64,000 nucleotides of DNA, from NCBI GenBank assembly GCA_030753015.1, contig JASMDC010000015.1:1-64000 (forward strand). The letters run 5' to 3'. A program made the translations under genes and the position numbers. The DNA comes from Candidatus Undinarchaeales archaeon. Its GTDB lineage: Archaea > SpSt-1190 > JASMDC01. How positions within the stretch are numbered: position 1 is the first letter of the stretch; each line of letters opens with the position of its first letter. The notes under the pieces are model-generated. The model made no database searches, was not told the origin of the DNA, and saw only the letters and a list, made by a program, of their open reading frames with translations. This document shows, piece after piece, positions 12,525 through 64,000 of this stretch.

Positions 12525-12545
12525 TTGTGCACCCTAACTACACCC

Positions 12546-12698
12546 ATGGTGTACGAGGAGATCAAGACGATCAAAGGACGGCAGTACAGATACCTACGCG
12601 AGAGCGTCCGGATCGACGGTCGCGTCGTCCACCGGACCGTGAAGTATCTCGGTCCCGTGGAACCAAGATACAAACCTCAGAAGAAGAAGGTGGTCTGA
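12546..12698 (+). CDS. 50-aa accessory protein of the IS1182-like element
   Basis: A small basic protein reading MVYEEIKTIKGRQYRYLRES... and ending in KKKVV. The pattern YLRESVR...RTVKYLGPVEP resembles the N-terminal beta-rich segment that begins many IS1634/IS4-type transposases, here as a separate gene. Its TGA overlaps the ATG of the transposase (TGATG), which implies translational coupling. Position, promoter and coupling support a real gene; the role (DNA binding or regulation) is inferred. Confidence 0.62.
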   Translation: MVYEEIKTIKGRQYRYLRESVRIDGRVVHRTVKYLGPVEPRYKPQKKKVV

Positions 12699-14200
12699 TG
12701 TCATACATCCCCTCCCTCCACAAACAATCCTGGCTCTTGGCGCCGAACCTCGAGGACCTGATACCTGAGTACCACATCTGCTACCTCGTCGAAGCGCTCA
12801 TATCGATGGTAGACTTCACCGGGTTCGACGAGAGATACGCGGGTCCCGGGCACCCGGCGTACCATCCCCGGATCATCCTGAAGCTGCTCGTGATGGGTGT
12901 CCTGGACAGGGTGCGCTCCTCGCGCAAGCTGGCCAGAAACGCTCGAGAGAACGTCGTCTACATGTACCTCGCGGAGAAGCTGACGCCGGACTTCCGTACC
13001 ATCAGCGACTTCCGCAAACAGAACGAGGAGCTCGTGAAGCAGCTCTTCAAGCACACGGTGGCGCTCGCCAAACAAGAAGGGATGCTCGACCTTACACAGC
13101 TCGCGACGGACGGGACCAAGATCAAGGCCAACGCGGCCAACATGCGTTCGCTCACCCGGCAGGAGCTCGAGTTCATGACACGGTTCGTCGACGAGGAGCT
13201 CGATGAGTGGGCCAAACAGGACCAGCTAGAGGACGAGGCGTTCGGCAGCCTGAGGGGATACGACCAGCTCCCGGGCAAGGGCAAGCAGAAGATGCGGTCC
13301 GCAGTGCGGCACTATGTGAAGCAGACCAGGGAGAAGGGCGACTCGTTCGAGGAGGCGGCTTCCCGGAAGCTGGAGGAAGCACGCCAGGAGATGGAGCGGC
13401 ACGGCGTCGACAAAGTGAGCACGACGGACACCGACTGCCGCTTCATGAAGTCCAAGAAGGGGAAGATGGAGTTCTCGTACAACCCCCAGGTCACGACGGA
13501 CGGGAACGGCTTCATCCTCGCCTCTGACGTGTGCCAGAACAAGAACGATAAAAAACAACTACAGCCCCAGGTGCTTCAGGCGGAAGAGAACCTCGGCCGG
13601 ATACCCGAAGGAACGCCATGGAACTTCGACACAGGCTACTTCAGCGGTGACAACCTGGCCTTCCTCAAGGAGAAGAAGATCAACGCGTACGTCGCAACAG
13701 AAAAGCCGAACCAAAACCCGTTCAGCGCCGACAAGTTCATCTACGACCCGGAGAAGAACGAATACACGTGTCCCGGGGGACACGTCATGAGATTCCTCAG
13801 CGAAAGACATGAGAATACCAGTGGCTATAGGTACAGTATCTACAAGTCCGATAGCTGCCACACGTGCCCGCACCAGGGATCATGCACAAAACAAAAGAAA
13901 GGTATCCGTTATCTTAAGATCTATCCGCACCCCGAGCTCAGGAAGGAGATGATCGACAAGATGCATACCAAGAAGGCGAAGAAGACATACCGTCGGCGCA
14001 AGGAGACCGTCGAACCGGCGATAGGATGCATCAAATACAACCAGGGGCTCAATGAGTTCCTCACGAGGGGCCTTGGAACGGTGAGAACGGAGTTCAGGCT
14101 GGCCTGTACGGCCCTCAACATCAAGAAGCTGTGGTTGCGAACGCGGGGAAGGGTGACGGATGTGGTCGGAGTCGCCCCTGTGTCTGTAGACCCGTGTTAA
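12698..14200 (+). CDS. IS1182-family transposase
   Basis: A 500-aa DDE transposase. The N-terminal half is DUF772-like (SSRKLARNARENVVYMYLAE, DFRTISDFRKQNEE). The DDE core has D in LATDGTKIKA, D in NFDTGYFSGDN and E in KETVEPAIGCIKYNQG, with a cysteine-containing insertion (CHTCPHQGSC). This domain order matches IS1182-family enzymes. The reading frame is intact from ATG 12698 to TAA 14200 and both element ends are intact, so the copy could be active. Confidence 0.9.
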   Translation: MSYIPSLHKQSWLLAPNLEDLIPEYHICYLVEALISMVDFTGFDERYAGPGHPAYHPRIILKLLVMGVLDRVRSSRKLARNARENVVYMYLAEKLTPDFRTISDFRKQNEELVKQLFKHTVALAKQEGMLDLTQLATDGTKIKANAANMRSLTRQELEFMTRFVDEELDEWAKQDQLEDEAFGSLRGYDQLPGKGKQKMRSAVRHYVKQTREKGDSFEEAASRKLEEARQEMERHGVDKVSTTDTDCRFMKSKKGKMEFSYNPQVTTDGNGFILASDVCQNKNDKKQLQPQVLQAEENLGRIPEGTPWNFDTGYFSGDNLAFLKEKKINAYVATEKPNQNPFSADKFIYDPEKNEYTCPGGHVMRFLSERHENTSGYRYSIYKSDSCHTCPHQGSCTKQKKGIRYLKIYPHPELRKEMIDKMHTKKAKKTYRRRKETVEPAIGCIKYNQGLNEFLTRGLGTVRTEFRLACTALNIKKLWLRTRGRVTDVVGVAPVSVDPC

Positions 14201-60226: not shown

Positions 60227-60308
60227 GTGCGCCGGTCGGGACCTGGACCCGTTCTTTTTTCTGACAGGCCCTGAACGCCAGATGACCGTTTGGGATATTG
60301 TTAAAAGA
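60227..60308 (+). repeat. tRNA-3'-end-like dispersed repeat, copy E (extended)
   Basis: GTGCGCCGGTCGGGACC core. The reverse strand resembles a T arm (CGGGTCCAGGTCCCG) plus acceptor strand and CCA. CTGAACGCCAGATGACC and TTAAAAG follow, as in copy C. Confidence 0.6.
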
Positions 60309-60336
60309 ACGGACCATCGACTCTGGACGGATGATC

Positions 60337-61068
60337 ATGAAAGCCATCCTGCACACAAGATACGGACCTGCCGACGAGCTTGAGCTCACAGAGGTCCCCA
60401 GACCGGTCCCCGGGGACAACGAGGTCTCGATCAAGGTGCATGCGACGGCAGTGACGACGGGCGACTGCAACGTCCGGAACCTCACGTTCGCGCCCAGAGA
60501 TTTCAAGATCCCTGTGCGGTTGTTCCTGGGGATAAGAACACCTCGGATCAAGATACTTGGGAACGAGGTGGCCGGAGTGATCGAGGCCGTCGGCAAGGAC
60601 GTCACGCGGTTCGCGGTCGGTGACAAGGTCTTCGGGACCCCCGGCGCTGCCATGGGCGCCCATGCCGAGTACCTGTGCATGCCCGAGGACGGAGTGCTGG
60701 CGATAAGACCTGACCCGATGAGCTGGGAGGAGGCCGAGGTAGTCATCGCCGAGCACGACGGTGCGCCCGTCGGGTTCGCCCTCTTCTTCCATAACTACTC
60801 GACGTTCCTGGGACGGCACGGCATCTACATCGAGGACCTGTACGTCCGGCCCGAGCATCGAGGGAAGGGGTGCGGGAAACAGCTGCTCGCCCATCTTGCC
60901 GACCTTGCCGTCGAGCGGGGGTGCGGGCGATTGGAGTGGTGGGTCCTCGACGTCAACCGGCCTGCCATCGACTTCTACGGGTCTCTGGGAGCGCAGGCGA
61001 TGGACGAGTGGACCGTGTACAGGCTGACCGGAAAGGAGCTGGGGCGGCTGGCCGCAGGCGGGCGGTGA
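60337..61068 (+). CDS. chimeric gene: alcohol dehydrogenase N-terminus fused to GNAT C-terminus
   Basis: Residues 1-133 are the GroES-like N-terminal domain of an MDR alcohol dehydrogenase/quinone oxidoreductase (MKAILHTRYGPADEL, GNEVAGVIEAVGKDVTRFAVGDKVFG, ending MSWEEAE). The Rossmann NAD(P) domain that should follow is absent. Residues 134-243 are instead the C-terminal part of a GNAT acetyltransferase (IAEHDGAPVGFALFFHNYST, acetyl-CoA loop RPEHRGKGCGKQL, LDVNRPAIDFYGSLGA), lacking its first strands. The junction near 60736 is in frame. ATG 60337 was chosen; ATG 60331 is equally possible. Whether the product folds or works is unknown. Confidence 0.85.
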   Translation: MKAILHTRYGPADELELTEVPRPVPGDNEVSIKVHATAVTTGDCNVRNLTFAPRDFKIPVRLFLGIRTPRIKILGNEVAGVIEAVGKDVTRFAVGDKVFGTPGAAMGAHAEYLCMPEDGVLAIRPDPMSWEEAEVVIAEHDGAPVGFALFFHNYSTFLGRHGIYIEDLYVRPEHRGKGCGKQLLAHLADLAVERGCGRLEWWVLDVNRPAIDFYGSLGAQAMDEWTVYRLTGKELGRLAAGGR

Positions 61069-61618: not shown

Positions 61619-62353
61619 TCACGCCAGCTCGTAGATGTGCGTGACGGGGTCCGAGTAGACAAGCCAGAACCCATCGATACGCGCCCCGACGAAGGCATCC
61701 CCCAGGACCGTCCCCTTGACGGGCCCCGGTTCACGGCCTGCTGCGATGAAGATGGCGTCGGCCTTGGCAGCGTCCTCGGCATGGACGTACAGGTACCCTG
61801 CGCCGTGGACCTTCATCACCGTTCGTGTATCGGCGGGATCGTAGGCGAGCAGTGCATCTGCCACGTCCCGGACGAGCGCGTGGGGCACGCAGTCGGGGCA
61901 GATGATGTCGTCTGCGGGCATCCCCAGGTACTTGGATACCGTCACCGGCAACAGCTCCCTCGAGGGTGCGTCGATCACCGGCTCGCGCTCGCCGTAGGCG
62001 CGGATGGCATGACCGTAGTCCCACCATGAAAGGACGTGCGCGTCCGGCGGCGTGTTCCTGTGCAGCCAGTCGAGGCCGGGCCGCATGGAGCGCGGGAGCG
62101 TCTGGTCGGGGATGATGGTGCGGTTGCCCCTGGTGTACCGCATAAGGGTGATCTCTCGCGCGGCCGTGCCGTGGCCGACCTCCTCGGTGACAAGCTCCAG
62201 GTCGTACCTGCCGCCGATACGCTCGACGTTCTCATCGATATTCCCGGGGCCGTCTGGATTCCCGTACCCCGTTCCGTCCAAGTAGTTGATGGAGATGATC
62301 GCACAAATGATCAGGATCCCGAGGCCCGTCAGCACGTACCGGGTGTCCGTCAT
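61619..62353 (-). CDS. stand-alone WWDYG-domain protein (oligosaccharyltransferase-like soluble domain)
   Basis: A 244-aa protein with one N-terminal membrane helix (YVLTGLGILIICAIISI) and an outside-facing domain. GLDWLHRNTPPDAHVLSWWD followed by YGHAIRAYGEREPVIDAPSR reproduces the signature region of AglB/STT3 oligosaccharyltransferases (WL--NTP-DA-VLSWWDYG). The 13-helix membrane domain with the catalytic residues is absent, so it cannot transfer glycans alone. It may be a relic, or bind acceptor sequons or assist a full AglB. It lies downstream of a promoter of its own near 62370-62385. Confidence 0.75.
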   Translation of the reverse strand: MTDTRYVLTGLGILIICAIISINYLDGTGYGNPDGPGNIDENVERIGGRYDLELVTEEVGHGTAAREITLMRYTRGNRTIIPDQTLPRSMRPGLDWLHRNTPPDAHVLSWWDYGHAIRAYGEREPVIDAPSRELLPVTVSKYLGMPADDIICPDCVPHALVRDVADALLAYDPADTRTVMKVHGAGYLYVHAEDAAKADAIFIAAGREPGPVKGTVLGDAFVGARIDGFWLVYSDPVTHIYELA

Positions 62354-62415
62354 CCTGCAATTGATTCAGGCGTGGATGCCATAAATACGTGCTGAGCGCA
62401 AAAAAGGCCTTAAAA

Positions 62416-63129: not shown

Positions 63130-64000
63130 TCACCGCATGTAGAAGAGGTCTTCTGCTGGCTCCTCCTTGATCTGGGGAGCAGCGAGCGCCTTCTGTACGA
63201 GCTCGTAGAACTTCTTGACCTCCTTGGTAAGAGAGGGGTGCACCTTCTCGCGGGCCTTCTCGAACTCCGCCAGGGAGACCTGCTTGGCCTCCATGTCCTT
63301 GCGGAGGGCAAAGATGGCCGACTCGCGACAGATGGCCTCCAGGTCGCTGCCAACGCAGTTCTCGGTCTCCTTGGCCAGCTTCTTGAGGTTCACGTCCTTT
63401 GCCAGCGGCATGTTCTTGGTGTGCACCTTCAGGATCTCGAGACGCGCTGCCTCGTCGGGAGCGCCAACAAGGATGTGGCGGTCGAACCGGCCCGCGCGCA
63501 TGAGCCCGCGGTCGATGATGTCCGGTCGGTTCGTGGCGCCGATGATGACCACGTCCTGGAGGTCCTCCAGCCCGTCGATCTCGGTGAGCATCTGGTTGAC
63601 GACCCGTTCCTCGGCCTTGTGCGAGCCCTCTCCCCCGCGGGAGGACGCGATGGCGTCCAGCTCGTCGAAGAACACCACCGTGGGCGCTACCTGGCGAGCC
63701 TTGCGGAAGATCTCCCGGATGGCCTTCTCGGATTCGCCCAGCCACTTGGAGAGGACCTCGGGGCCCTTGACCGAGATGAAGTTGGCCTCGCTCTCGTTGG
63801 ACACGGCCTTTGCGAGCAGGGTCTTTCCGGTGCCCGGCGGTCCGTAGAGGAGGATGCCCGTGGGCGGTCTGATGCCCAATCGGTCGAACGCGGCCTTGTT
63901 CTTTAGCGGCCATTCCACGGCCTCGACCAGCTCCTGCTTGATGTCAGCGCAGCCGCCGATGTCGTCCCACGTGATGTTCGGTACCTCGACCAGCACCTCG
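63130..64000 (-). CDS. CDC48/VCP-type AAA+ ATPase (C-terminal part, cut by window end)
   Basis: The visible 290 codons cover the second (D2) AAA module and the C-terminus of an archaeal CDC48/p97 homologue, which unfolds proteins using [23 protein letters not shown] begins the module. Walker [16 protein letters not shown], Walker [16 protein letters not shown], sensor [10 protein letters not shown] and the arginine-finger [14 protein letters not shown] are intact. The frame continues past the window edge; full length is normally about 730 aa. The ending [17 protein letters not shown] resembles an archaeal CDC48 C-terminus that can bind the proteasome (HbYX-like YMR is uncertain). Confidence 0.9.

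Follow-up and report, generated by a model that had tools for sequence, protein, structure and literature searches.

What does a domain of an oligosaccharyltransferase (OST) do when it is produced apart from the membrane-embedded part of the enzyme? This question is raised by one gene in the 64,000-nucleotide stretch of DNA from a Candidatus Undinarchaeales archaeon that was analysed here and is called the window below. The earlier note on this DNA had placed a WWDYG-type signature on a 244-aa protein with one membrane helix. Both points are confirmed: the signature, WLHRNTPPDAHVLSWWDYG, occupies residues 96-114 of the 244-aa protein, which is encoded on the minus strand and has its helix at residues 4-25. 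The features of the gene, referred to below as the window short form, are as follows.

61619-62353, minus strand: stand-alone STT3/AglB core open reading frame, membrane-anchored, 244 aa, intact, with its ATG at 62353
62279-62344, minus strand: N-terminal membrane helix or signal anchor, residues 4-25 (hydropathy and model helix)
62114-62230, minus strand: small N-terminal beta-sheet domain, residues 42-80 (from the model; found in HAAS-type relatives too)
61622-62104, minus strand: STT3/AglB central core (CC) domain, residues 84-244, alpha/beta (fold match to 3vu0_C)
62012-62026, minus strand: WWDYG motif, residues 110-114 (sequence; conserved in the family)
61751-61774, minus strand: DK motif DAAKADAI, residues 194-201, putative second half of a Ser/Thr pocket (hhalign alignment and family conservation)
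62380-62387, minus strand: TATA-like box, about 30 nt upstream of the ATG (read by eye)

Genomic setting

The TATA-like box, read by eye, suggests that the gene is transcribed separately from its own promoter, possibly without a leader. A scan for sigma-70 promoters and terminators around the gene, using models that are unsuited to archaea, returned nothing. Upstream of the gene are a cdc48-type AAA gene and an MBL-fold gene, and downstream of it is an unassigned 157-aa open reading frame; no conserved operon or partner gene of the short form was found in the loci examined. The AAA gene (window positions 63130-63999) has a counterpart (L132:4456-6768) beside a distant short form, L100, but the arrangements differ, so this shared vicinity was taken as coincidence.

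Elsewhere in the window, the open reading frame at 60298-61068 appears to join a zinc alcohol dehydrogenase-like N-terminal part in frame to a GNAT-type acetyltransferase, which may represent a natural fusion, a deletion or an assembly error, and the one at 12527-14200 resembles an IS transposase. The source genome measures 3.85 Mb with an estimated contamination of 5%; nine other genomes of the class measure 0.6-1.1 Mb.

The window protein contains an STT3/AglB-type central core

The single window sequence matches human STT3A with an E-value of 3.7e-6 (phmmer). A profile of 21 relatives improves this to 5e-16 and also matches the core domains of AfAglB-S1 and AfAglB-S2, over the C-terminal half. 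Comparison of the short-form profile with 16 AglB cores by hhalign gave 99.4%. Against curated families, the single sequence scores 22.7 bits for PF21436 (STT3-PglB_core), just below the gathering score of 23 bits, and 22.4 bits for TIGR04154 (NCBIfam), under the curated score of 450 bits. A structural model was prepared with AlphaFold from a 21-sequence alignment (pLDDT 90, pTM 0.80), and its fold match is the AfAglB-S2 core (PDB 3vu0, 3vu0_C) with Z 19.1 over 134 residues at 1.5 Å, while unrelated rows in the same fold comparison have Z below 5. For the comparison with OST catalytic subunits, this Z of 19.1 to 3vu0 is joined by a further E-value of 5.4e-7.

Taken from sequence and model, the resemblance to STT3 exceeds chance. 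In the AglB-S proteins of Archaeoglobus the CC unit is the sole C-terminal domain (PMC3703281). Because the profile matches to STT3A and AglB are accompanied by a fold match of such strength, we conclude that the window protein contains a complete CC unit of an STT3/AglB-type OST. The earlier view of the protein as an AglB domain that faces the surface and has been parted from the membrane region is supported by the hydropathy, the model and the fold match.

The acceptor pocket is kept and the catalytic half is lost

In known OSTs, the WWDYG and DK/MI motifs form a pocket for the +2 Ser/Thr of the sequon, and catalysis needs motifs of the membrane half, namely the metal-binding DXD and the TIXE/SVSE motif (PMC3703281, PMC8342417). 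The DK motif is defined as DXXKXXX(M/I) (PMC3703281). The window protein fits this definition with D194-x-x-K197-x-x-x-I201, sequence DAAKADAI, which lies on a kinked helix and aligns to the DK region of AglB in hhalign. The multi-spanning GT-C membrane region, with its two DXD motifs and TIXE/SVSE loop, is absent from the window protein, which has one helix. The protein also lacks a DGGK or DNXTZNX[T/S] motif, and no STT3 membrane half adjoins its gene.

The family presents a similar picture. Among 48 short forms, 47 have W110, 47 have W111 and 45 have D112, and the DK residues are found at D194 in 40, at K197 in 30 and at I/M201 in 28. The lipid-linked-oligosaccharide motif, DGG or DNxT, follows WWD in none (0/48), and a motif of the family's own, GH-x-I-R...PS, stands where it would be. 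Distant short forms show motif erosion (WWDNG, WWDQS, WWPHA, TWYL), and the pocket lysine is missing in three of the four HAAS-type proteins described below. As WWDYG and DK are present, and the membrane half and DGG/DNxT are absent, the short form has kept the acceptor pocket and lost the catalytic half and the donor-lipid motif. In the window short form, both halves of the predicted pocket for Ser/Thr (+2 of the sequon) are present.

The short family is old, broad and patchy

A separate AglB domain had also been described as unusual. The separate domain is real, but calling it unusual has to be qualified: the search of relatives that had been proposed found short forms in about 47 of the 1,716 genomes searched, across six archaeal phylum-level groups. 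The initial relatives came from records titled Nanoarchaeota, Aenigmatarchaeota, Bathyarchaeota and Thermoplasmata. Profile searches, in which we counted short open frames with core-length matches (fragments excluded; E-value cut 1e-10 or 1e-8), gave lower bounds for the phylum of each record: at least 20 of 392 genomes for Methanosarcinales, at least 10 of 371 for Nanoarchaeota, at least 6 of 156 for Aenigmatarchaeota, at least 4 of 389 for Thermoplasmata and at least 4 of 398 for Bathyarchaeota. In the window's own phylum the short form is found in at least 3 of 10 genomes. In many short forms a short signal peptide is followed by a lipobox, which would place their domain outside the cell.

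In a tree of 38 cores, 19 short forms fall on one side of a branch, apart from full-length AglB, a split with moderate support (80/91). The neighbours of the window protein are L034-L036, short proteins of other phyla (100/98). Judged by these comparisons, the short family is old and retained, with a broad but patchy presence in archaea. A viral or plasmid origin was considered and rejected: no relatives of the short form were found in phages, in IMG/VR or in plasmids (query L091), and viral structures gave no significant fold match. Open-access literature on stand-alone or truncated AglB, WWDYG, HAAS with OST, or HaoB with OST did not describe the family.

The source genome does have a full-length AglB, for which a search had been suggested; it is a 970-aa protein on contig C62. 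More generally, of 34 genomes that carry a short form, 31, among them the source genome, encode a match to the STT3 membrane part that exceeds the Pfam cut-off. Since archaea frequently have STT3, these numbers demonstrate no more than coexistence.

Other separated or unusual AglB proteins were met during these searches. The source genome encodes a second stand-alone AglB C-terminal half of 352 aa with one helix (L004:730-1785, minus strand; G000:C44, about 16.2-17.2 kb). This C44 protein is 37% identical to the AglB on C62 over 363 aligned columns and is its sister in the tree (100/98); its origin is judged to be independent and separate from that of the window short form. Open frames of about 220-480 aa with additional AglB-C-terminal-like matches occur in more than 20 Aenigmatarchaeota genomes (L169:988-2031, minus strand; L178:1351-2331; L171, L180 and others), and in the proteins read YWDPG replaces WWDYG, the K of the kinked helix is kept and there are one or several membrane helices. 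In genome G012, the C-terminus of an archaeal AglB is extended by a fused peptidyl-prolyl isomerase domain of the cyclophilin type (L010:1441-2667). In the Thermoplasmata genomes G065, G085 and G097 (L245-L247), which have the HAAS-core fusions, STT3 matches lie in frames of 2371-2522 aa, far above the usual AglB length.

Fusions to membrane modules

Four proteins from three Thermoplasmata genomes (L038, L087 with its tandem neighbour L090, and L088) consist of a HAAS domain, five predicted membrane helices and then the same ectodomain, and in all three genomes the fusion gene either overlaps with a PadR gene or lies right next to one. HAAS (PF22564) scores in the four fusions are 36.1 and 33.2 bits, over the Pfam cut-off, and 23.1 and 22.6 bits, just under it. 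As the number of membrane helices is odd, the core domain of the HAAS form would lie outside the cell. The model of L038, with a pTM of 0.48, has a low-confidence membrane part and a usable ectodomain; it shows the last membrane helix, four strands and the core, with the strand order of the window model, and its ectodomain matches AfAglB-S2 (3vu0) with Z 16.4. Pairs of HAAS and PadR have been proposed to form a membrane-stress signalling dyad, an alternative to two-component systems (PMC11237479).

In the Methanosarcinales relatives L211 (961-2139), L208 and L212, a DUF1673-like multi-helix N-terminus with a GWCP motif precedes the core; the five-helix region of L211 scores 25.6 bits, below the 30.4 cut-off for DUF1673. 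Single-helix Methanosarcinales relatives retain a GWCP stub.

Core-like domains in other proteins

The HaoB profile (TIGR04392) matches the WWD region in 13 of 21 short forms, with a best E-value of 8.9e-9. In a control, the same profile matched 8 of 16 full-length AglB cores, with a best of 1e-12. HaoB was rejected as a specific relative of the short forms, since full-length AglB cores match even better, and because of this control we claim only a kinship of core domains. The window protein itself scores 18.3 bits against TIGR04392, below the 200-bit curated cut-off, and there is no haoA or hao cluster beside its reading frame, the flanking genes not being hao. HaoB is a hydroxylamine oxidation-associated protein whose function is listed as unknown (PMC3772326). 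Judged by the profile matches, the HaoB of nitrifiers seems to include a domain like the STT3 core, and this kinship provides a structural lead for HaoB. Two further proteins with a core-like domain are the C-mannosyltransferase DPY19 and AftD, which the window model matches at Z 11.5 and Z 6.9.

Possible functions of the short form

Our preferred reading, to which we give a probability of about one half, is that the short form is a non-catalytic, membrane-anchored module that binds sequons or hydroxyl-containing peptides as a receptor or adaptor. The CC domain of an STT3/AglB-type OST would be made as a separate extracytoplasmic protein anchored to the membrane, and with the catalytic half missing it would transfer no glycan. 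Its Ser/Thr pocket could hold peptides with an Asn-X-Ser/Thr or other hydroxyl-containing segment on the outer side of the membrane. The earlier note had offered two conjectural roles, the modulation of N-glycosylation and the binding of sequons, and sequon-type binding is plausible because this pocket is intact; the N-x-T sites to which the note pointed in proteins of the window would not be specific. In OSTs the sequon is held by EL5 as well, so the core on its own may bind weakly in a short form that lacks this loop, which the family-specific small beta-domain perhaps replaces. As a receptor or adaptor, the protein would detect accessible sequons, for example non-glycosylated or unfolded ones, on exported surface proteins; the HAAS-fused form would signal, and lipoprotein or single-helix forms such as that of the window would recruit or hold clients. 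We regard this as the likeliest general role because in Thermoplasmata the same ectodomain tops a HAAS protein with five membrane helices beside a PadR-type gene. Also in its favour are the fold match, the two retained pocket motifs, and a family that is old, stands apart from full-length AglB and coexists with STT3. The weak points are the absent EL5, the missing pocket lysine of some family members and the eroded motifs of distant ones. It also counts against a receptor or adaptor that the window gene has neither a HAAS nor a PadR partner, and that no conserved neighbour indicates a pathway.

The short form could instead act in trans as a subunit of an OST or another GT-C glycosyltransferase, docking either on the genome's full-length AglB or on some GT-C protein that has no such domain, and supplying or blocking the acceptor-binding site. 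The presence of STT3 in 31 of the 34 carrier genomes would agree with this, as would the several GT-C-like proteins of the source genome (with matches limited to profile positions of about 70-205), a 443-aa multi-helix GT-C-like gene in genome G003 (L055:1289-2620, minus strand) that is divergent from the short gene, and the fact that separate AglB C-terminal domains arose at least two more times, in C44 and in the Aenigmatarchaeota YWDPG proteins. However, STT3 is frequent among archaea in any case, linkage of the short gene to aglB or a GT-C gene is not conserved, and the HAAS and DUF1673-like fusions indicate other partners; we consider a subunit in trans unlikely. Slightly less likely still is reuse of the fold for another ligand or for a structural ectodomain, in which case WWD would serve folding instead of the binding of sequons. 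Such reuse would suit the core-like domains of DPY19 and AftD, the HaoB profile matches to short forms and AglB cores alike, the GH-x-I-R...PS motif in place of the lipid-linked-oligosaccharide motif, and the motif erosion in distant members, but few residues vary as little across the 48 members as W-W-D and the DK aspartate, and this fits retention of the pocket better than upkeep of the fold alone.

Very improbable, finally, is a decaying remnant of a truncated aglB. The stand-alone C44 duplicate in the same genome shows that truncation is possible in principle, but the window reading frame is intact, the motifs and the ectodomain are conserved over six phylum-level groups, and in the tree the window protein clusters with short forms from other phyla, away from the AglB of its own genome. 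On that grouping we rejected a recent truncation of the source genome's AglB, and tree and motif conservation together largely refute the remnant. A recent truncation with the membrane part adjoining in relatives had been named as what would overturn the original claim; in the neighbourhoods read no short gene lies beside an STT3 membrane half, and the short forms have their own branch.

Returning to the receptor or adaptor, we suggest a broader extension that is possible but doubtful. Archaea, and perhaps bacteria too if HaoB is counted, may repeatedly have made the acceptor-recognition domain of OSTs into a receptor that stands alone outside the cytoplasm, and the HAAS-PadR form may report non-glycosylated or misfolded surface sequons to a transcription factor. 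If true, the HAAS-PadR form would be an archaeal glycoprotein quality-control sensor. For the question of how archaea check the glycosylation of their surface proteins, an OST acceptor-recognition domain that stands alone, and in one lineage is joined to a membrane signalling module, would be a concrete candidate. The short forms also offer small, possibly soluble stand-alone cores for the study of sequon recognition.

Comparison with known systems

The likeness to the HAAS-PadR dyads of PMC11237479 lies in the Thermoplasmata relatives, with their HAAS domain, five membrane helices and ectodomain beside PadR; the window protein differs in having no HAAS match and its gene in having no PadR neighbour. 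The available text of that source makes no mention of an STT3-core sensor. With the CC unit of STT3/AglB/PglB, the window protein shares the fold, WWDYG, the DK motif and a typical core end. The short family differs from these enzymes in lacking the GT-C half, DXD, TIXE/SVSE and DGGK/DNxT, and it adds an N-terminal beta-sheet, the WWDYGH-x-IR...PS motif of its own and one anchor helix or a lipobox.
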